Assembly (NCBI GenBank): GCA_902564785.1
Contig: CACFCI010000001.1
Location: 62,001-126,000, forward strand
Direction: 5' to 3'
DNA: 64,000 nt
Source of the DNA: an uncultured Pelagibacteraceae bacterium
GTDB taxonomy: Bacteria > Pseudomonadota > Alphaproteobacteria > Pelagibacterales > Pelagibacteraceae
Within the stretch, counting starts at the first letter, position 1. Each line of letters opens with the position of its first letter. Below the pieces are notes generated by a model that searched no databases, was not told the DNA's origin, and saw nothing but the letters and a program-made list of their open reading frames with translations. Positions 15,993-58,812 of this stretch are shown here, in pieces. The translations under genes were made by a program, and so were the position numbers.

Positions 15993-16157
15993 CTAATAAT
16001 TTAGGAGCAAAAGAATAATCGCAATCATAGCTACAACTGATGTAATAACAATAAAATTTAGTTTAATATTAAATTTTTTTTCAACAAATTCTGTAATTTT
16101 TTCCCAAAACAAAACTATAAGGAATATAATTATTGCTGGAATTATATATTTGATCAT
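15993..16157 (-). CDS. 54-aa predicted membrane protein (not in supplied ORF track)
   Basis: MIKYIIPAIIIFLIVLFWEKITEFVEKKFNIKLNFIVITSVVAMIAIILLLLNY; fills the gap between flanking minus-strand genes. Confidence 0.45.
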   Translation of the reverse strand: MIKYIIPAIIIFLIVLFWEKITEFVEKKFNIKLNFIVITSVVAMIAIILLLLNY

Positions 16158-17077
16158 TTTTTTACCAATCTTGTTAAAAATCTAAATTTCCATAATAAAA
16201 TCTTAAAATATTTAATCATATAGAAATTATCTTTAATTTCTTTTTGATTTTTTGTCTCAGATACTATTTCATTCAGATTAAATTTACATACTCCTCTTAT
16301 GTCATTTAAGTTTTTTTTATTTTCATCTTGATACTTATTAAAATAATTATTTGTTATGTGTTCAATAAAACAATCAGGATCTGGTTTGAAATTAATTTCA
16401 GGTATCAATGTTGCTTTAAAATAATTACAACTTATTGCATGAAGTCCCAATGCAGATCTTTCAGTAATTCCATAATTATGTCGAAAATTAGTTAATTTTT
16501 TTTCAAAAGACCAAAACTTAGTATTTAAAAAATTATTAAATATTTTTTTATTATATAACCAAAAACAACAATAATTTTCAAAATCATTTATAAAATATTT
16601 TTGATTTTCTATTTTTAAAAATTTATCAAATTGTTTTGCTACATGGATACAGTAGTTAAGATTGTCTTTATTATTTTTTTCGTATATCAAAAAACCTAAA
16701 TGAAATTTATGTTTACTCAAGTTTTGTTGATGCTTTAAATAATATTGCAAATTTTTTTCAGAAAATTTAATATCATGCTCCAAGTACATGAAGTGATCAT
16801 AATCATTTTTTTGTTTTTGCATTATTGGTCTTGATAACCAAGTCAAATGTCCCTTTTCTAAATCATTTTCACTTATTTCATGATTAATAATTTCTGCCTC
16901 TAAATTTTTATCATCTAAAAAATTATTATGTGTATGAATAAAGATATCATTTCTAATCGATAATTTTTTAAGATTTTCAATATTTTCTTTTAAAAATTCG
17001 TATCTCGTTAACTGTCTATAACCTTCTTTTTTTTGAGGATTTGGATTGTAAAAAGGTATATGTATCGATATAGACAT
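16154..17077 (-). CDS. Putative glycosyltransferase-like protein
   Basis: MSISIHIPFYNPNP, FMYLEHDIKFS (DxD-like), adjacent to nucleotide-sugar genes. Confidence 0.45.
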   Translation of the reverse strand: MSISIHIPFYNPNPQKKEGYRQLTRYEFLKENIENLKKLSIRNDIFIHTHNNFLDDKNLEAEIINHEISENDLEKGHLTWLSRPIMQKQKNDYDHFMYLEHDIKFSEKNLQYYLKHQQNLSKHKFHLGFLIYEKNNKDNLNYCIHVAKQFDKFLKIENQKYFINDFENYCCFWLYNKKIFNNFLNTKFWSFEKKLTNFRHNYGITERSALGLHAISCNYFKATLIPEINFKPDPDCFIEHITNNYFNKYQDENKKNLNDIRGVCKFNLNEIVSETKNQKEIKDNFYMIKYFKILLWKFRFLTRLVKK

Positions 17078-28647: not shown

Positions 28648-29553
28648 TTATCCTTTCACTGCTCCTGAAGTTAATCCTCTAATAAAATATTTGCCTGCTA
28701 ATACATAAACAATAAGTGTTGGAATCCCGGCTATAATAGCTGAAGCCATATCAACATTATATTCTTTAACGCTTGTGCTTGATAAAACCATATTATTTAA
28801 AGCGACTTGTATAGGTGCCGCTTCACCAAAAGAGAAAGTTGATCCAAATAAAAAATCGTTCCATATTTGTGTGAATTGCCAAATTACTGTTACAACAATT
28901 ATCGGTGCAGATATTGGAAGTAAAATTTTAAAAAATATTTTAAAAAACCCAGCACCGTCTATTCTTGCAGCTTTAACTAATTCTGTTGGGACAGAAACAT
29001 AATAATTTCTAAAAAATAATGTCGTAAAAGGTATTCCATAAACTGTATGGACTAAAACTAATCCAACTACTGAATTTGAAATTCCTAATACTCCAAGAGT
29101 TCTTGCCATTGGAAGCAATATTGCTTGAAATGGTATGAAGCACCCAAATAATAAAAAAAGAAAAACCCATTGATCTCCTTTGAATCTCCACTTTGTTAAA
29201 ACATAGCCTGTCATCGCTCCAATGAATGTTGAAAAAAATACTGCTGGTACAACCATCTTTATTGAATTCCAAAAATATGGTCTCAAAAAAGTATCACCAG
29301 CTCCATAACCTCGACCTCCCCATGCTACAGCCCAAGATTCCAAATTTATTCCACTTGGCCAACTTAAAAGTGTTCCTTGTCGAATCTCTTCCATTGTTTT
29401 TAAAGAAGTAACAACCATTACGTATAGTGGAAAAATAAAATAAGAAGCAAAAAGAATTAAAGTAAAATATAAAAACCATCTCAAAAACATATTTGTATAT
29501 TTAGATTTTTGCTCTAACTGCTGATAAGATGATGATTTCAAACTATCTTGCAT
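28648..29553 (-). CDS. Sugar ABC transporter permease (MalG type)
   Basis: LVKAARIDGAGFFKIFFKILLPISAPIIVV EAA-type loop. Confidence 0.92.
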   Translation of the reverse strand: MQDSLKSSSYQQLEQKSKYTNMFLRWFLYFTLILFASYFIFPLYVMVVTSLKTMEEIRQGTLLSWPSGINLESWAVAWGGRGYGAGDTFLRPYFWNSIKMVVPAVFFSTFIGAMTGYVLTKWRFKGDQWVFLFLLFGCFIPFQAILLPMARTLGVLGISNSVVGLVLVHTVYGIPFTTLFFRNYYVSVPTELVKAARIDGAGFFKIFFKILLPISAPIIVVTVIWQFTQIWNDFLFGSTFSFGEAAPIQVALNNMVLSSTSVKEYNVDMASAIIAGIPTLIVYVLAGKYFIRGLTSGAVKG

Positions 29554-30418
29554 TTTCTCTCCTTAGCTCTGAATATAAATATGGGATAATCACAGCTGCA
29601 ACTGCCATAAACATCATCATTGCACTCGCTGCAGATAAACCAACCTGGCTTTTGTGAAATGCAGTTTGAGTCATATATAAAGCAGGCATAGTTGTTGATA
29701 TACCTGGGCCTCCCTGTGTCAGCGCTACGATGAGATCATAACTTTTTATGGATATATGAACTAAAATTACAAAACTTGTAAAAAATACAGGTCTCATCAT
29801 TGGAAGTAAAATCTTCCAGTAAACAGTAAATAAACTTGCGCCATCTATTTTTGCTGCCTTAACAATTTCATCTTCGACTGACCTTAATCCAGCTAAAAAT
29901 AAAGCCATAACAAAGCCTGCAGATTGCCAGACACCAGCAATTACTATGGTATAAATGGCCATTTCCCTATCTACTAACCAATCAAAGGTAAAGTTCTCAA
30001 AACCCCAGTCTCTAAACATTTTTTGGATGCCTAAAGTTGGATTTAATATCCATTTCCAAGCAGTTCCTGTCACAATAAAAGATAACGCCATTGGATATAA
30101 ATAAATTGTTCTTAACAAACCTTCAGCTCTGATTTTTTGGTCTAAAAAAATTGCAAGAATTATTCCTATAACAACACAAAAGATTAAAAATAATGCTGTA
30201 AAAATAAGCAAGTTATCTACTGCAATAAGCCATTTTCTTGATGCCCAAAGTTTTTCATATTGTCCAAATCCCCAAAGTTCATACTTTGGTAAAATTTTAG
30301 AATTAGTAAAAGATATATATAAAGTCCATAGTACAAAACCATAAACAAACCAACCAATCAAACCAACAGCTGGGGCCATTACAATTTTAGGTAAATTTTT
30401 TTCTAACCACTTGAACAT
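29543..30418 (-). CDS. Sugar ABC transporter permease (MalF type)
   Basis: IVKAAKIDGASLFTVYWKILLPMMRP EAA-type loop; GGPGISTTMPALYM. Confidence 0.92.
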   Translation of the reverse strand: MFKWLEKNLPKIVMAPAVGLIGWFVYGFVLWTLYISFTNSKILPKYELWGFGQYEKLWASRKWLIAVDNLLIFTALFLIFCVVIGIILAIFLDQKIRAEGLLRTIYLYPMALSFIVTGTAWKWILNPTLGIQKMFRDWGFENFTFDWLVDREMAIYTIVIAGVWQSAGFVMALFLAGLRSVEDEIVKAAKIDGASLFTVYWKILLPMMRPVFFTSFVILVHISIKSYDLIVALTQGGPGISTTMPALYMTQTAFHKSQVGLSAASAMMMFMAVAAVIIPYLYSELRRENAR

Positions 30419-30445: not shown

Positions 30446-30483
30446 AAAAAAAAGGCCACTTAATCAAAAGTGGCCTTTTAATT
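30446..30483 (-). terminator. Rho-independent terminator/attenuator between binding-protein and permease genes
   Basis: aaaaggccact/agtggcctttt 11-bp arms with T-run on -. Confidence 0.88.
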
Positions 30484-30491
30484 TTTAATTA

Positions 30492-31748
30492 CTACATATT
30501 AGCTAAAACTGAGTCAGCTAAAGCGTTTGCGGCATCTACAGATGACATATCAGAGTTAAAGTGCTCTGTTATAATATCTTGTAGGGCAGCTTTCATAGTA
30601 TTACCTTGGGCCATACCGTGAGCAAAACTTGGAACTAATCCACCGCTTGCTCCAGCAGTTTTAATATCAGAGTTTGAAGTTTTTGCACATTTATCAAACT
30701 CATCCATTGGAACATCTAGTCTAGCTGGGATTGAACCTTTGTATAGGTTAAATACTTTTTGGAAGTTTTTACCCATCATTAATTTCGCTAGTAGCTTTTG
30801 ACCTTCTTGTTTTTCTGGATCGCTAGTTTTGTAAAATATAAAACTATCTACGTTATATAAGTATCCATTATTTGATGGAGTAGGAGCACAGTAATAATCT
30901 ACACCTGGAACTTTTCCAGCAGCTGTAAATTCACCTTTTGCCCAGTCACCCATAATTTGGAAACCAGCTTTTCCTTCAATTACCATACCGGTAGCAACGT
31001 TCCAGTCTCTTCCTGGACTACCTTCATCAGTATAGCTTTGAAGTTTTCTCATTTGATCAAAAACTTTAACTGTTGTCTCACTTCTTAAACAGCTTTCTTT
31101 AAGATCAACGTAACAATTTTTGTAGTAGTTATTTCCACCAATACCCATAGCAACTGCTTCAAATACTGTAGCATCTTGCCAAGCTTGACCACCGTGAGCG
31201 AATGGAATTATTCCTGCAGCTTTTAATTTTTCTGCAGCAGCATTTACTTCGTCCCAAGTTGTTGGAACTGAAATACCATTAGCATCGAATACAGCTTTGT
31301 TTGCCCACATCCAGTCAATTCTATGAATGTTAACTGGTGCAGCACAATATGGTCCACTATTGTTTTCACATTTATGGACAGCAGCAATCATTGGATCTAA
31401 AAGTTTATCCCAACCTTCAGATTGAGCAATTGCATCAATATTATACGGAGCCACAACACCTTCTTGGTCATACTCTTGTATTGTAGGTCCTTTGATTTGA
31501 GATGCAGATGGAGGATCTCCAGCCACAATTCTTGCTTTTAATGCAACGTTAGCAGCGTCTCCACCACCACCTGTTACAGGCATATCCATCCATTCACCAC
31601 CATTTGCAGCGAAATCATCTTTTAATACTTTAAGTGCAGCAGCTTCACCACCAGATGTCCACCAGTGCAGCACCTCTATCTTTGGTCCTGCAATCGATGA
31701 AGTAGATGTGAAAGCTAATGTAATTAAAGCGATAAGTATTTTTTTCAT
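30492..31748 (-). CDS. Sugar ABC transporter substrate-binding protein
   Basis: Signal peptide; IEVLHWWTSGGEAAALKVLKDDF; family-1 SBP features. Confidence 0.93.
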   Translation of the reverse strand: MKKILIALITLAFTSTSSIAGPKIEVLHWWTSGGEAAALKVLKDDFAANGGEWMDMPVTGGGGDAANVALKARIVAGDPPSASQIKGPTIQEYDQEGVVAPYNIDAIAQSEGWDKLLDPMIAAVHKCENNSGPYCAAPVNIHRIDWMWANKAVFDANGISVPTTWDEVNAAAEKLKAAGIIPFAHGGQAWQDATVFEAVAMGIGGNNYYKNCYVDLKESCLRSETTVKVFDQMRKLQSYTDEGSPGRDWNVATGMVIEGKAGFQIMGDWAKGEFTAAGKVPGVDYYCAPTPSNNGYLYNVDSFIFYKTSDPEKQEGQKLLAKLMMGKNFQKVFNLYKGSIPARLDVPMDEFDKCAKTSNSDIKTAGASGGLVPSFAHGMAQGNTMKAALQDIITEHFNSDMSSVDAANALADSVLANM

Positions 31749-32843: not shown

Positions 32844-33593
32844 TTAATAAGTTGCCCTTCCGCCGCTCAAATCAAAAACAGCTGCTGTAGAGAATGAATT
32901 TTCTTCACTAGCTAACCAAGTTACTAACGAAGATAACTCTTCAACTTTTGCAAATTTATTTCTAGGAATTTTTGATAACATATAATTAATATGCTCTTCT
33001 GTCATTTGGTCAAAAATTCTTGTTTTTGCTGCTGCTGGAGTTACACAATTTACAGCTATATTTTTTTGTGCAAGTTCTTTACCCAAAGATTTTGTTAAAC
33101 CTATAACGCCTGCCTTTGAAGTACTATATGCACTTGCATTTGGATTTCCTTCTTTTCCTGCAATAGATGCAATATTTACTATTCTTCCATAGTCATTCTT
33201 TAACATGAAAGGAACAACCGCTTTACAACAATAAAAAACAGAATTTAAATTTAAGTTCATTACTTTTTTCCATTCATCTAGAGGATACTCTGCTACAGTA
33301 GTATTCAATCCTGCAATACCTGCGTTATTAACAAAAATATCTATTTTTCCATGTTTTTGTTCTACCTCTGCTAAATTTTTATTTACTATTTCAAAATTAG
33401 TTACGTCTACTATCTGATGACTTAGGTGTTCTGATTTTACTTTATCAATAGCTTCTTTAGCAGCATTTTCATCAATATCCCAAATCACAACTGTAGCACC
33501 AGACTCGATAAATCTTTCAGTTATTGCTAAACCAAATCCTTGAGCTCCACCAGTAACAATCGCCACTCGATTATTTAAATCATAGTTAATCAT
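32844..33593 (-). CDS. SDR family oxidoreductase (FabG-like)
   Basis: AIVTGGAQGFGLAITERF, NNAGIAG, YSTSKAGVIGLTKSLGKELA. Confidence 0.92.
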   Translation of the reverse strand: MINYDLNNRVAIVTGGAQGFGLAITERFIESGATVVIWDIDENAAKEAIDKVKSEHLSHQIVDVTNFEIVNKNLAEVEQKHGKIDIFVNNAGIAGLNTTVAEYPLDEWKKVMNLNLNSVFYCCKAVVPFMLKNDYGRIVNIASIAGKEGNPNASAYSTSKAGVIGLTKSLGKELAQKNIAVNCVTPAAAKTRIFDQMTEEHINYMLSKIPRNKFAKVEELSSLVTWLASEENSFSTAAVFDLSGGRATY

Positions 33594-35067
33594 TATTTCT
33601 TTTAATTTTTCTTGATCTTATTAAAGGAAAAGCCAAAGCAATTAAAGATAAAATAAAAAATGTTAATGCAATTGGTCTTGTGAAAAACATTAGCCAATTA
33701 CCATCGAATATAACTAGAGATTGTCTTAAAGTTCCTTCAACTAACTCACCCAAAATTAATCCAATAATAACTGGTACTACTGAAAAGCCATATCTTCTCA
33801 TAAAGAAACCTAGCACTCCAAAAAATAACATTATCCAAACATCTATTATGGATTGATTTAAAGAATAAGTTCCACATACTGAAACTGCAAATATCATTGG
33901 CCATAAGATTTTGTTAGGAACTAAAGTTATTCTTGCAAATATTTTAGCTCCAAAAAATCCAAAAATAAAAAAGAGAATATTGGCAATCAACATAGCGCCA
34001 AAAATTCCATATAAGAAATCTGGCTGCTCTCTAAACAAATCTGGTCCAGGTCTAACACCATGGATAATCAATCCCGTAAGTATAACCGCTGTTGTTGCGC
34101 TACCAGGAATACCTAGCGCTAAAGTTGGAACCATCGCGCCGCCTGTTGCTGCGTTATTTGCAGCCTCAGCACCAGCAATGCCTTCAATAGATCCTTTTCC
34201 AAATTCTTCTGGATTTTTTGAAAATCTCTTAGCCTCAGAATAACCAATTAAAGATGCAACTGTTCCACCTTCTGCAGGAAGAACTCCAATAAATGATCCT
34301 ATCCCACTTGATCGTAGTATTGTTTTCCAAGTTTTCTTATAATCATCTTTGCTAGGAAGCTTAATTGCTTTTAAAGCTATTCTGTTAAACACTTGATTGA
34401 TTAAAGTTGATTGAGTTAACATTTCACTCATTGCAAAAAGTCCAACTACTACTGGTATAAATCCTATTCCTTCAGTTAATTCATTGATCCCAAAAGTAAA
34501 ACGATCAATTGAAGTCATAAAATCTTTACCAACTGTAGATATCAATATTCCAAATGCACCTGCGATTAAATTTTTAATTGGACTACCCTCACCTATTGAA
34601 GCAAGCATTGTTAAGCCAAATATTGCTAATGCAAAATATTCTGGCTGACCAAACTCATAAGCAAGTTGCGCTAATATAGGAGCAAAGAAAACTAATATAA
34701 CGACGCTAAAAATACCTCCAACAGTACTTGAGACTGTTGCCATACCTAAAGCTCTTCCAGCCTCGCCTTTTTGTGCTAAAGGATAGCCATCTAAACAAGT
34801 GGCTGCAGCTGCTGGGGTCCCTGGTGTATTAATAAGTACAGCAGTTATTGCACCACCATAGGTTCCTGCACAATAAATAGATGTTAATAAAACAATTGCA
34901 GATAATGGATCTAGAGTCATTGTGAAAGGTAAGATCAATGCTCCACCTGTTGTTGGTCCTAACCCGGGCAACACACCTAATATCAAACCAAATAAAGTTC
35001 CAAAAAATAAAACTAATAATAGTTTAGAACTAAAAAGTGGTGCCAGCATTAATAATAAATTATCCAT
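33586..35067 (-). CDS. tctA: Tripartite tricarboxylate transporter large membrane subunit TctA
   Basis: GVLPGLGPTTGGALILPFT, YGGAITAVLINTPGTPAAAATCLDGYPLAQKGEAGRALG. Confidence 0.95.
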   Translation of the reverse strand: MDNLLLMLAPLFSSKLLLVLFFGTLFGLILGVLPGLGPTTGGALILPFTMTLDPLSAIVLLTSIYCAGTYGGAITAVLINTPGTPAAAATCLDGYPLAQKGEAGRALGMATVSSTVGGIFSVVILVFFAPILAQLAYEFGQPEYFALAIFGLTMLASIGEGSPIKNLIAGAFGILISTVGKDFMTSIDRFTFGINELTEGIGFIPVVVGLFAMSEMLTQSTLINQVFNRIALKAIKLPSKDDYKKTWKTILRSSGIGSFIGVLPAEGGTVASLIGYSEAKRFSKNPEEFGKGSIEGIAGAEAANNAATGGAMVPTLALGIPGSATTAVILTGLIIHGVRPGPDLFREQPDFLYGIFGAMLIANILFFIFGFFGAKIFARITLVPNKILWPMIFAVSVCGTYSLNQSIIDVWIMLFFGVLGFFMRRYGFSVVPVIIGLILGELVEGTLRQSLVIFDGNWLMFFTRPIALTFFILSLIALAFPLIRSRKIKRNND

Positions 35068-35574
35068 TTAACTATAGTAAATGTTAGTGATTATTCCTGG
35101 AGGAAATCTTAAACCTAAAATAGTTTCAAAAAATATAAAAACAATAATTGGGAAAATAATCCCAACTAGTAATAAATAAAATAATCTATTTTCTCCCCAA
35201 CAATAAGAAACAAAGATAGATAAAGCTGAGATTGCTAAAAAGAAATCAAGTGTTTTAGAAACTACTACAAAAATAACAAAACTTGATAAAGTTAGAAAGA
35301 ATGATCTTGGTAATTTTTTTTCAACTTTCCAGGGATTTTTAGTTGCCAAATAATAGATTAACAATGTCATTACTATTATTAAGACTAAAAGTGCTTTTGG
35401 AAATGTTGCTGGCTGTATTCCTCTATTTAAAATTGGAGGAACAATATCAAAAGTAAAAGTTGTGATTAATAATGCTACTGATATTAAAATAATTACAAGA
35501 GAAACTCTAAACTCATCTCTAAAAAAAAAGGGCAAACTTTTGTTTGCCCTTTTTTGTTTTTGTACATTTTTCAT
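35068..35574 (-). CDS. tctB: Tripartite tricarboxylate transporter small membrane subunit TctB
   Basis: Four-TM small subunit between tctC and tctA; ATG at 35574 preferred over TTG at 35580. Confidence 0.85.
   Translation of the reverse strand: MKNVQKQKRANKSLPFFFRDEFRVSLVIILISVALLITTFTFDIVPPILNRGIQPATFPKALLVLIIVMTLLIYYLATKNPWKVEKKLPRSFFLTLSSFVIFVVVSKTLDFFLAISALSIFVSYCWGENRLFYLLLVGIIFPIIVFIFFETILGLRFPPGIITNIYYS
35521..35555 (-). terminator. Rho-independent terminator located inside the 5' coding region of tctB
   Basis: Minus strand gggcaaac aaaa gtttgccc followed by T9; 8-bp perfect stem downstream of the tctC stop. Confidence 0.88.
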
Positions 35575-35597
35575 ATTCAAATGTACTTTTAATTAGA

Positions 35598-36572
35598 TTA
35601 GTTAATGTAACCTAAAGCTTTAAGCTGTGCAGTCATCTCAGCAAGCATTTCTTCCATTTGCTTACCCCATTCATCTGCACCTACAACACTTGTCTCATCA
35701 AGACCAATTTCTGTTAAGAAATTTTTGTAGTAATTGTGGCTCATAGCTTTCATCATTCCAGCTTCTAATTGTTTTACTCTGTCTGCTGGAGCACCTTTTT
35801 TAGTTACGAAACCTCTAACAGTAGATAAAGAAACAGGTATACCTAATTCTTTTGCTGTTGGAGAGTCTCCAATTTTAGCCATTCTATTATTTGCTAATAC
35901 AACTGAAACACAAAGTTTTCCTTCATTAATTTCAGTCAATGCCTCACCTAAGTTTAAAACACCTACATCAATATCTCCTTTGATAAGGTTAGTTTTAATT
36001 GGTGCAACACCTTTGTAAGCGACGATAGTTGGATCTTTTAATCCACCTTTTTTTGTAAATGCAATTGCACTAACATCGTCAATACCACCAGTATGAGTAG
36101 TTCCATATTTTAGTGATTTTGATTTTTGAGTACTAATAAATTTTTTAGCATCTTTGATGTCGTTTTTACAATTTACAACAAATAACTGAGGGTCATCTGT
36201 TCCTCTAGCAAGTGGTTGCATATCACTTAACTTAACTTTAGTTTTTCCTAAAGCCATAGACACTGCATGACCTGTTGTCCAAGTTAAAGTGTGATTTCCA
36301 TCAGCTGGTAAAGACATCATATAATCCATAGATGCGGCCCCACCACCACCTTTTTTGTTTACTAATTGCATGTCTTGCTTAAGGACTCTTCTTGCTCTTA
36401 ATAACATCATTCTAGTAGTAACGTCAGTTCCACCACCAAAACCAGCGTGTGTAATTGCTTGTATTGGGTGACCATCAGCTTTAGCTGATGTGATCATTAA
36501 TGGAAGAGCTACAACAAAAAATTCAGTTACTAGAAAAGCAGCTGCTAAAAATAGTTTAAAGCTTTTTTTCAT
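35598..36572 (-). CDS. tctC: Tripartite tricarboxylate transporter substrate-binding protein TctC
   Basis: Signal peptide; ITHAGFGGGTDVTTRMML, NKKGGGGAASMDYM, LPADGNHTLTW. Confidence 0.92.
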   Translation of the reverse strand: MKKSFKLFLAAAFLVTEFFVVALPLMITSAKADGHPIQAITHAGFGGGTDVTTRMMLLRARRVLKQDMQLVNKKGGGGAASMDYMMSLPADGNHTLTWTTGHAVSMALGKTKVKLSDMQPLARGTDDPQLFVVNCKNDIKDAKKFISTQKSKSLKYGTTHTGGIDDVSAIAFTKKGGLKDPTIVAYKGVAPIKTNLIKGDIDVGVLNLGEALTEINEGKLCVSVVLANNRMAKIGDSPTAKELGIPVSLSTVRGFVTKKGAPADRVKQLEAGMMKAMSHNYYKNFLTEIGLDETSVVGADEWGKQMEEMLAEMTAQLKALGYIN

Positions 36573-39806: not shown

Positions 39807-39843
39807 AAAAAAAAAGGGTGGAATTAAATTCCACCCTTTTTTT
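39807..39843 (-). terminator. Rho-independent terminator between rbsB-like and rbsD/fucU-like genes
   Basis: aaagggtggaatt aaattccaccctttttt with long A-run (T-run on -). Confidence 0.9.
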
Positions 39844-39861
39844 AAAGTATATATCTATCGA

Positions 39862-40785
39862 TTATTTAAAATCGTTAGCGTTTTCTTTTGTTACTAATTG
39901 TGTTCCTGTATCAATGTTTGGATCAATACTTCCACCATTAGCTAATTCTAGAGCATATTTAACTCCATATGCACCCATGTTGTAAGAAAACTGTGCGATT
40001 GTTGCTGTCATTTCTCCTTTTAAGATACTCGTAGCTGCATCTGGAGTAGCATCAAAACCTACAACAATAACATTATTCATATCTGCATCTTTTAGAGCTT
40101 GCATAGCGCCTAAGCCCATATTATCGTTTGATGCAAATATTGCTTTGATGTTTGGATTTTTTAAGATGATTGACTCCGTTACAGATCTTCCTTTTGCAGT
40201 ATCCCACTCAGCAGTTTGAGTTGCTACAATATTTAGACCACAATTTTTGAAACCTTTAATTGCACCATCTCTTCTAAGCAAAGCTGTAGATTGAGATTCA
40301 ATACCAGTTAAAATTGCAACATCTGAACCTTTTGGAGTTTTGTCACAAATAAATTTAGCAGCTAACTCTGCACCATTCATGTTGTTCGTTCCAATAAAAG
40401 TTACTCCTTCATTAATTCCTTTTGTATCCACGAATACAACTGGAACACCACTTTTAATAGCATCATCTACGATTGGAGCAAAAGCATTTGGATCTCCTGG
40501 CGCTAAAGCTATTGCATCAACACCTTTTGCAAGTTGATCCTCTACTTGGTTAATCTGAGCTTGTACATCACCTTCTTGCGGTGGTGCAACCAAAACTAAA
40601 TCAACACCTAATTTTGCTGCTTCTTCTTTAGCTCCTTTTTCTACAGATGCCCAAAAAGGATTACCTGATCCAGGTCCTTTAATGCTGAATAATATTTTTT
40701 TTCCAGCAAATGCCCCTGTTGAAAAACTTGCTAATAGAAAAACAGAAGTAATAATTACACTAATTATTTTTATTAAGTTTTTCAT
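39862..40785 (-). CDS. rbsB: Ribose-type sugar ABC transporter substrate-binding protein
   Basis: Signal peptide; FSIKGPGSGNPFWASVEKGAKEEAAKLGVDL, ALAPGDPNAF, ASNDNMGLGAMQAL. Confidence 0.92.
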   Translation of the reverse strand: MKNLIKIISVIITSVFLLASFSTGAFAGKKILFSIKGPGSGNPFWASVEKGAKEEAAKLGVDLVLVAPPQEGDVQAQINQVEDQLAKGVDAIALAPGDPNAFAPIVDDAIKSGVPVVFVDTKGINEGVTFIGTNNMNGAELAAKFICDKTPKGSDVAILTGIESQSTALLRRDGAIKGFKNCGLNIVATQTAEWDTAKGRSVTESIILKNPNIKAIFASNDNMGLGAMQALKDADMNNVIVVGFDATPDAATSILKGEMTATIAQFSYNMGAYGVKYALELANGGSIDPNIDTGTQLVTKENANDFK

Positions 40786-56540: not shown

Positions 56541-57845
56541 ATGAAAAAAATAATGATTTTATTGTTTGTTTCTCTATTTTCATTCTCTGTAAATTCAAAC
56601 GCTAAATCTATCACTTTAGGATGGGCTGCTTGGGACCCTGCTAATGCTTTGCAAGAATTAACTAAAGAATTTACTGCAGAAACTGGAATAGAGGTAAATT
56701 TTGAGTTTGTGCCTTGGCCAAATTTTGCCGACCGTATGTTAAATGAACTTAACAACAAAGGTAAAACATTTGACCTTTTAATAGGTGACTCTCAGTGGAT
56801 TGGTGCTGGTGCAGTATATGGACATTACGTTAAATTGAACGACTTCTTTGATAAAGAAGGAATTTCAATGAGTGATTTCTCACCAGCTACTGTTTATGCC
56901 TACTCAACTTGGCCTAAAGGTAGTGAAAACTATTATGCATTACCTGCTATGGGAGATGCATTAGCTTGGGCTTATAGAAAAGACTGGTTTGATAGACCAG
57001 AACTTAGATCTGAGTTTAAAAAGAAACACGGTTATGATCTAGGTGTGCCTGCTAACTGGAATCAATTGCATGATATGTGTAGTTTTTTCCAAGGAAGAGA
57101 AATTGATGGTCAAAAAAGATATGGGGCTGCAATTAACACAGAACGTGGATCAGAAGGTATAACAATGGGTGTTACAGCTGCTATGTATGCGTGGGGTATG
57201 GAATATGAAAATCCTAACAAACCATATGATATGGAAGGATATTTCAATTCACCACAAGCTGTAGAAGCGGTTGAGTTTTATAGAAAGTTATATGAAGATT
57301 GCGCACCTCCAGGACACTCTGATGCTTACATGGTTGCAAACTTAGATGCTTACAAATCAGGGCAAGTTGCATTTCAAATGAACTGGTATGCTTTCTGGCC
57401 TGGTGTTTCTAAAGAAGACAGTGGCGGAAGAGTTAGTGGCTTCTTTGCAAATCCAAAACAAAATGTTGCAGCTGCAACATTAGGTGGACAAGGGATATCT
57501 GTTGTTAAATACTCAGACAAACAAGATCTTGCTCTTGAATACATTAAGTGGTTTGCAAGACCAGATGTACAGCAAAAATGGTGGGATCTAGGTGGGTACT
57601 CATGTCATAATGATGTTTTAAATTCACCATCATTTCCAACATCTACTGTTTATGCACAAGGATTCTTGGACTCAATGGGAATTGTCAAAGATTTTTGGCA
57701 AGAACCAACATTCGTTGAGTTAATGCTTCCTATGCAAGAAGCAATTCATGACTATGTTGTTAATGGAAAAGGAACTGCTAAAGGCGCTCTAGATAAAATT
57801 ATCGAGGAGTGGGTTGAAGTGTTCGAAGCAGACGGAAAACTTTAA
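56541..57845 (+). CDS. Polyol/sugar ABC transporter substrate-binding protein
   Basis: Signal peptide; LTKEFTAETGIEVNFEFVPWPNFADRMLNELNNKGKTFDLLIGDSQWIG; GGQGISVVKYSDKQDLALEYIKWF. Confidence 0.92.
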   Translation: MKKIMILLFVSLFSFSVNSNAKSITLGWAAWDPANALQELTKEFTAETGIEVNFEFVPWPNFADRMLNELNNKGKTFDLLIGDSQWIGAGAVYGHYVKLNDFFDKEGISMSDFSPATVYAYSTWPKGSENYYALPAMGDALAWAYRKDWFDRPELRSEFKKKHGYDLGVPANWNQLHDMCSFFQGREIDGQKRYGAAINTERGSEGITMGVTAAMYAWGMEYENPNKPYDMEGYFNSPQAVEAVEFYRKLYEDCAPPGHSDAYMVANLDAYKSGQVAFQMNWYAFWPGVSKEDSGGRVSGFFANPKQNVAAATLGGQGISVVKYSDKQDLALEYIKWFARPDVQQKWWDLGGYSCHNDVLNSPSFPTSTVYAQGFLDSMGIVKDFWQEPTFVELMLPMQEAIHDYVVNGKGTAKGALDKIIEEWVEVFEADGKL

Positions 57846-57871: not shown

Positions 57872-57898
57872 AGGGGGGGTTAAACCTCCCCTTTTTTT
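57872..57898 (+). terminator. Rho-independent terminator/attenuator after the binding-protein gene
   Basis: aggggggg ttaaa cctcccct ttttttt. Confidence 0.82.
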
Positions 57899-57912: not shown

Positions 57913-58812
57913 ATGAGCGTAAAAAAAAAATTCAAGGGACTTTCTGATAAAGCTGTAGGTTGGCTTTTTATTGGACCAACTGTACTTCTGCTACTGGCCA
58001 TAAATATTTATCCATTGGTCTATGCAATCAAAATGTCTTTTACAAATTTTTACGCAAATAAAATTGGAAGAGAACCTCAATTTGTTGGTTTAAAAAATTA
58101 TATTAAAGTTCTTAACAAAGAAGCCATATGGGAAAAAATGCAAGTTACAGCAAGCTTTATGTTTTGGACCTTATTGCTCCAAGCAATTATAGGTTTGGGT
58201 TTGGCTTTACTTCTTAACAGGAAATTTAAAGGTAATGAACTACTAACCACATTAATTGTTTTACCCATGATGTTATCACCTGCAGTAGTAGGGGTATTTT
58301 GGACTTATCTTTATAATCCTCAAGTAGGTCTATTTAATTATGTTGTTAATTTTTTCTATGATTTAGGAAGCTTTGATATGATTGGCTCAAGTACGCTTGC
58401 TCCTTGGGCTATTGTTATTGTTGATACATGGATGTGGACACCTTTTACGATGTTAATTTGCTTGGCAGGTCTTAGATCTGTTCCAAATTATTTATATGAA
58501 GCTGCAGAGGTTGATAGAGCCAGTAAATGGCAGCAATTCATATATATTACTTTACCTTCCGTTTTGCCATTTTTATTACTAGCTTTGCTTTTTAGAGGGA
58601 TTGAGAATTTCAAAATGTTTGACATGGTTGTTGAGCTCACCTCTGGTGGACCCGGCTCTGCTACAGAGCTTGCTTCAATTAACTTAAAAAGAGAAGCATT
58701 TGAAAAATGGAAAACAGGTTACAGCTCAGCATTTGCTGTTATTCTTTTTGTTACAATATTTGGTTTTGGAAATGTCTACGTAAAAGTAATGAATAAAATA
58801 AAGGAACGCTGA
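57913..58812 (+). CDS. ABC transporter permease (MalF type)
   Basis: YLYEAAEVDRASKWQQFIYITLPSVLPFL EAA-type loop; GGPGSATELASINL. Confidence 0.93.
   Translation: MSVKKKFKGLSDKAVGWLFIGPTVLLLLAINIYPLVYAIKMSFTNFYANKIGREPQFVGLKNYIKVLNKEAIWEKMQVTASFMFWTLLLQAIIGLGLALLLNRKFKGNELLTTLIVLPMMLSPAVVGVFWTYLYNPQVGLFNYVVNFFYDLGSFDMIGSSTLAPWAIVIVDTWMWTPFTMLICLAGLRSVPNYLYEAAEVDRASKWQQFIYITLPSVLPFLLLALLFRGIENFKMFDMVVELTSGGPGSATELASINLKREAFEKWKTGYSSAFAVILFVTIFGFGNVYVKVMNKIKER

Follow-up and report, generated by a model that had tools for sequence, protein, structure and literature searches.

A conserved terminator-like hairpin behind the binding-protein gene tctC lies within the tctB reading frame in SAR11 bacteria

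Introduction

Partial intrinsic terminators within operons consist of a stem-loop and a U-tract placed between abundant upstream and scarcer downstream products, and they are usually intergenic. In E. coli, the mRNAs of binding proteins such as malE are selectively stabilized by 3' hairpins and kept in excess (Dar and Sorek 2018, PMC5927463). Experimentally mapped 3' ends internal to E. coli open reading frames (ORFs) mark short RNAs inside coding sequences, sponge RNAs included (PMC7815308). In Cand. Pelagibacter ubique, the rhtB element is a SAR11 hairpin followed by a U-tract in about half of the examples (PMC2704228).

The locus that we describe is the junction between tctC and tctB in a 64,000-nucleotide stretch of Pelagibacteraceae DNA, hereafter the window. 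It resembles the malE-malF intercistronic hairpin and the differential-decay operons of E. coli in carrying a strong hairpin after a binding-protein gene and before membrane-subunit genes, and the inferred purpose, excess binding protein, is the same (PMC5927463). Unlike malE-malF, the tct hairpin has a terminator U-tract and lies within the reading frame of the gene that follows, and it belongs to a transporter of the tripartite tricarboxylate rather than the ABC type. It also departs from the usual partial terminators within operons, since the start codon of the downstream gene, tctB, lies upstream of the terminator. With the ORF-internal 3' ends of E. coli it shares frozen wobble positions, seen there in one case (ftsO), but the tct element would end the message of the preceding gene and is a prediction (PMC7815308). 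The rhtB element has another genomic context and, in the part of its description used here, is neither placed inside a coding frame nor tied to tct genes (PMC2704228). Judged by comparison across genomes, the tct element is real, conserved and RNA-level; it joins the known class of hairpins behind binding-protein genes, and its new feature is the overlap with the next gene.

SAR11 bacteria rank among the ocean's most abundant cells. Modelling indicates that their nanomolar nutrient affinities could be reached with binding proteins far more numerous than transport units, and it argues that SAR11-type oligotrophs need a high ratio of the two (PMC8168909). The tct junction bears on the means by which the ratio of binding protein to transporter is set in a genome where intergenic DNA is so scarce. 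The rule to which our results point is that a strong hairpin stands behind nearly all recognized binding-protein genes (in 1.2 Mb of a related genome, G020) and that tct operons often accommodate it within the gene downstream. At this locus, RNA structure also holds the synonymous sites of a coding region fixed, a point of consequence for the annotation of start sites.

Results

A predicted intrinsic terminator overlaps the start of tctB

The features of the operon and of its tctC-tctB junction, all on the minus strand, are as follows.

35598-36572, minus: tctC, periplasmic substrate-binding receptor of a tripartite tricarboxylate transporter (Pfam PF03401, E 7e-19)
35600-35598, minus: tctC stop codon (sequence)
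35562-35586, minus: hairpin 1, -7.3 kcal/mol, arms GTACATTT (35586-35579) and AAATGTAC (35569-35562), with the tctB ATG in its loop
35572-35574, minus: probable tctB start ATG, invariant in the aligned orthologues
35068-35574, minus: tctB, small membrane subunit (Pfam PF07331, E 2e-11)
35524-35555, minus: hairpin 2, terminator stem-loop of 14 bp inside the tctB frame, -18.2 kcal/mol
35555-35550, minus: A-run (A6) of hairpin 2 (sequence)
35549-35542, minus: 5' GC-core arm of hairpin 2, GGGCAAAC (sequence)
35541-35538, minus: loop of hairpin 2, AAAA (sequence)
35537-35530, minus: 3' GC-core arm of hairpin 2, GTTTGCCC (sequence)
35521-35529, minus: terminator U-tract (T9), doubling as Phe-Phe-Phe codons of tctB (sequence)
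33586-35067, minus: tctA, large membrane subunit, directly downstream of tctB in the operon (Pfam PF01970, E 5e-160)

The Pfam matches bear out the identities that an earlier note, made from the letters of this DNA, had assigned to tctC, tctB and tctA, and its coordinates for the tctC stop, the two in-frame upstream candidates for the tctB start (TTG 35580 and ATG 35574), the stem and the T9 are correct. The tctC stop is 23 nt from ATG 35574; counted from this ATG, the stem begins after 19 nt and the U-tract extends to 53 nt. The PF07331 match covers residues 26-160 of the TTG-start tctB ORF, and the N-terminal tail encoded by the hairpin precedes it.

Hairpin 2 has the GC-rich stem and short loop of an intrinsic (Rho-independent) terminator (five G-C pairs in an 8-bp core, loop of 4), with T9 directly after the stem and T8-T9 in nearly all orthologues. 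It stands after a binding-protein gene and before the membrane-subunit genes, its stem about 42-48 nt past the tctC stop, and in the window as in its orthologues it falls within the tctB frame and not between genes, tctB codons continuing through both stem and U-tract. A 111-nt fold over the junction reaches -28.9 kcal/mol (z = -5.5; 0 of 200 shuffles as good), and the minimum-energy fold consists of two independent hairpins with no competing antiterminator. A simple scan ranked hairpin 2 among the strongest hairpins nearby; under a stricter scan it was the sole sense-strand terminator inside an ORF in the window, one of nine. The claim that a canonical terminator lies inside the tctB frame is upheld: by its sequence, hairpin 2 is a canonical intrinsic terminator, and its conservation (below) shows that it is not a product of chance.

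A search of the window against Rfam gave no match to any curated family at gathering scores. Two other identities were rejected. In the gene set used, more than 13 kb separate the hairpin from the end of the nearest upstream plus-strand gene, which excludes a bidirectional terminator for converging genes, and the hairpin pattern occurs once in the whole assembly, which excludes a repeat family or mobile element.

The hairpin is conserved as RNA

The comparison drew on 80 SAR11 loci identified through similarity to TctB, on further loci obtained by surveying 297 genomes of the order, and on 40 chosen regions. Both hairpins are present in 134 of the 149 SAR11 tctC-tctB loci examined (some genomes occur in two collections), so that the in-frame hairpin whose conservation the earlier note had wished to see checked by alignment is indeed conserved across SAR11 junctions.

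Such conservation might reflect the peptide KRANKSLPFFF, which is similar among close orthologues, and not the RNA. The synonymous sites argue otherwise. Among 75 equal-length orthologues, pairwise synonymous diversity is 0.007 over tctB codons 7-19 versus 0.27 over the other 146 degenerate codons, and the lowest value in any other 13-codon window of tctB is 0.155. Amino acids, in contrast, vary normally, with a diversity of 0.09 inside and 0.10 outside the hairpin codons. Compensatory change affects four stem pairs, with 11 cells changed on both sides among 39 distinct sequences, a result reached by 0 of 500 shuffles; examples are GGGCAAGT/ACTTGCCC in L112 and GGGACAAAC/GTTTGTCCC in L123. Frame and peptide also differ in L123, and the orthologues L131-L133, about 47% identical, carry a hairpin that differs in sequence and frame yet remains inside the tctB ORF. 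The frozen synonymous sites, the compensatory pairs and the frame switch of L131-L133 show that selection acts on the RNA hairpin. Synonymous sites and covariation rule out conservation driven by the peptide, and we regard the idea that the hairpin is kept only for KRANKSLPFFF as next to inconceivable.

The probable tctB start codon lies within a second hairpin

The earlier note had found no usable in-frame start after the hairpin. Taken literally this does not hold, as an in-frame TTG at 35535-35533 would keep the first membrane segment whole. If tctB truly began at this TTG or later, the hairpin would merely be intergenic and the upstream frame fortuitous. The TTG, however, is buried in the 3' arm of stable hairpin 2, and the L131 and L133 orthologues have no in-frame start between the hairpin and the first membrane segment, which makes the upstream ATG the likely start of tctB. 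Moreover, the frame from this ATG is intact in all 75 equal-length orthologues used, and a 1-nt insertion in L053 is matched by another in-frame ATG. A late start is thus very improbable.

In L053 (and L108, probably the same genome), the insertion is an extra A in the A-run before the terminator stem. It shifts the tctB frame, but the shifted frame has an ATG of its own within the 3' arm of hairpin 1, and tctB remains open; the extra A could be a sequencing error. In L130 (G131:C10:15314-15815), tctB is frameshifted and has an internal stop, yet both junction hairpins are intact.

Hairpin 1 is absent from the earlier note. In an alignment of 40 sequences, its inner arms (GTACAT/ATGTAC) are invariant and its loop varies in length. 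With every pair of the helix invariant, covariation gives no support to hairpin 1. The variable spacing of its arms favours a hairpin in the RNA over a DNA dyad bound by a protein.

Hairpins follow binding-protein genes genome-wide

Our preferred reading, to which we assign a probability of roughly 0.75, is that hairpin 2 serves tctC both as a partial terminator and as the hairpin at the 3' end of its mRNA, holding TctC in excess over TctBA, in a compact form that falls within the first 18 codons of tctB. When RNA polymerase has moved past tctC, the hairpin would form and transcription would frequently stop in the U-tract, yielding abundant, 3'-protected tctC mRNA. The fraction that reads through would supply tctB-tctA mRNA, and the outcome would be soluble binding protein in excess of the membrane subunits. 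Usable tctB message would come essentially only from readthrough, because the terminator lies downstream of the tctB start; an internal promoter could serve tctA only. From the hairpin, its conservation, the frame and the genome-wide pattern described below, we infer that transcription terminates here and that mRNA and protein levels are skewed accordingly. Two further steps are more speculative: translation of tctB might open the hairpin and raise readthrough, and the start-codon hairpin might keep ribosomes off terminated tctB stubs. As terminated transcripts would carry the tctB start without a stop codon, burying this start in a hairpin may avoid stalled ribosomes.

In the window, U-tract terminators follow all four of the binding-protein genes found. 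The three besides that of tctC, located by scan, are intergenic.

30454-30475, minus: terminator between an ABC binding-protein gene (30492-31748) and a permease gene (29543-30418)
39816-39836, minus: terminator behind a binding-protein gene (39862-40785)
57873-57891, plus: terminator between a binding-protein gene (56541-57845) and a permease gene (57913-58812)

We then turned to G020, a related SAR11 genome, in which 1.2 Mb of a 1.44-Mb contig was scanned. Hairpins of -15 kcal/mol or better occur at 23 of 889 same-strand junctions, and about 0.03% of random 90-nt coding windows reach this energy. A solute-binding-protein gene lies upstream at 16 of the 23; 15 of these were confirmed by Pfam, and one (at 399104, a partial sequence) was judged by its sequence and its counterpart at 39862-40785 in the window. 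The other upstream genes include those for a proteorhodopsin, an OmpA-family protein and a rubrerythrin by Pfam, and for GroEL, a symporter and RecA by sequence alone. A search for further binding proteins in G020, seeded by the hairpin-bearing proteins and passed through a crude signal-peptide filter so that completeness is not assured, gave one clear case, a second TctC with a hairpin of its own (group IV below), and one doubtful case below the Pfam cut-off. This setting behind binding-protein genes fits a role in keeping TctC above TctBA, and the high TctC:TctAB ratio suggested by the earlier note remains a likely function of the tctC terminator.

The same stretch of G020 holds 21 strong terminators, of which one, that of tctB, is inside a sense ORF; this count refers to unbulged stems, as a perfect-stem scan is blind to bulged hairpins such as that of the second tctB of G020. 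One more case emerged from a wider scan: a dctQ-like ORF whose predicted start lies 5 nt after the beginning of a hairpin, probably a start-site artefact as a later ATG exists. The strong hairpins at the 23 same-strand junctions of G020 (L152-L211) were seen mostly after binding-protein genes and other probably highly expressed genes, the latter including those for proteorhodopsin, GroEL, Pal, a porin and AmtB.

Paralogous tct operons share a junction hairpin and vary in the U-tract

We also examined paralogous tct operons. In group II (L134, L135, L142-L144), the hairpin occupies the space between tctC and tctB, and only L134 shows a clear U-tract. The earlier note had named homologues with a downstream TctB start and no hairpin as evidence that would count against it; the orthologues do not follow this pattern, and in this one distant paralogue group the hairpin is intergenic. 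Group III (L136-L139, L145-L147) has a strong hairpin within the N-terminal tctB codons and no U-tract, a combination that points away from termination and towards protection of the mRNA or control of the start. Group IV comprises the second tctCB of G020, with 30 loci at at least 90% identity and 20 more distant. Its hairpin, AGAGCAGTGA...TCACTGCTCT-T6, contains the tctB GTG start inside the 5' arm (e.g., L153:2990-3045, plus strand; L242-L291), and synonymous diversity is 0.03 over tctB codons 2-14 versus 0.31 elsewhere; the U-tract is broken in some distant members. On these comparisons, SAR11 tctC-tctB junctions generally carry a hairpin, which frequently overlaps tctB, and the U-tract depends on the lineage.

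These operons bear on whether the element terminates transcription at all. It could instead be a decay element only, protecting tctC mRNA at its 3' end once RNase has cut within tctBA, as at malE/malF, with little termination. This mechanism is known for binding-protein mRNAs (PMC5927463) and would suit the hairpins without U-tract at paralogous junctions, as well as those in other Alphaproteobacteria, where a hairpin, in most cases with no U-tract, exceeds the local 5% background at 9 of 21 tctC-tctB-like junctions, their upstream genes called tctC by position and length alone. The window lineage, however, preserves its U-tract at T8-T9 nearly throughout, and its A6/T6 extension is like that of terminators elsewhere in the genome. 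We therefore consider decay alone an unlikely account, although mRNA protection may be the older function, as the junctions of group III and part of group II suggest.

A partial terminator, as we prefer to read hairpin 2, might also be gated by translation, as the earlier note proposed. Ribosomes loading at the tctB start, aided by termination-reinitiation from tctC, would invade the hairpin and license readthrough, so that transcription of the membrane subunits would depend on tctB translation. The geometry makes this possible: the start, which a conserved hairpin holds in its loop, precedes the GC stem by 25 nt, and a ribosome initiated at ATG 35574 would reach the stem after a few codons. 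In group IV, with the GTG inside the terminator stem, initiation and hairpin would exclude each other by geometry. The tctC terminator is also 48 nt past the stop, versus 13-29 nt (one 105 nt) for the other terminators of G020, as if it had been moved into tctB. Against this, a ribosome terminating at tctC falls short of the stem, a new one must move several codons in the short time before RNA polymerase clears the U-tract, and the overlap could be simple genome compaction. Gating thus seems to us a plausible addition that we would not bet on.

Somewhat more doubtful is a recurrent design in SAR11 tct operons in which the tctB start region and the tctC terminator form one element, with initiation and termination mutually exclusive. 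If true, this would be a ribosome-gated switch of the ratio of binding protein to channel, repeated across several paralogous operons whose hairpins are unrelated in sequence and frame.

Other genes in the window

An ORF of 307 aa at 16154-17077 (minus) has no Pfam match at E 1e-5. Divergent from tctC lies a PdxA-family gene (PF04166; 36642-37637, plus), with short-chain dehydrogenase genes nearby; this neighbourhood is perhaps a catabolic cluster served by the Tct transporter.
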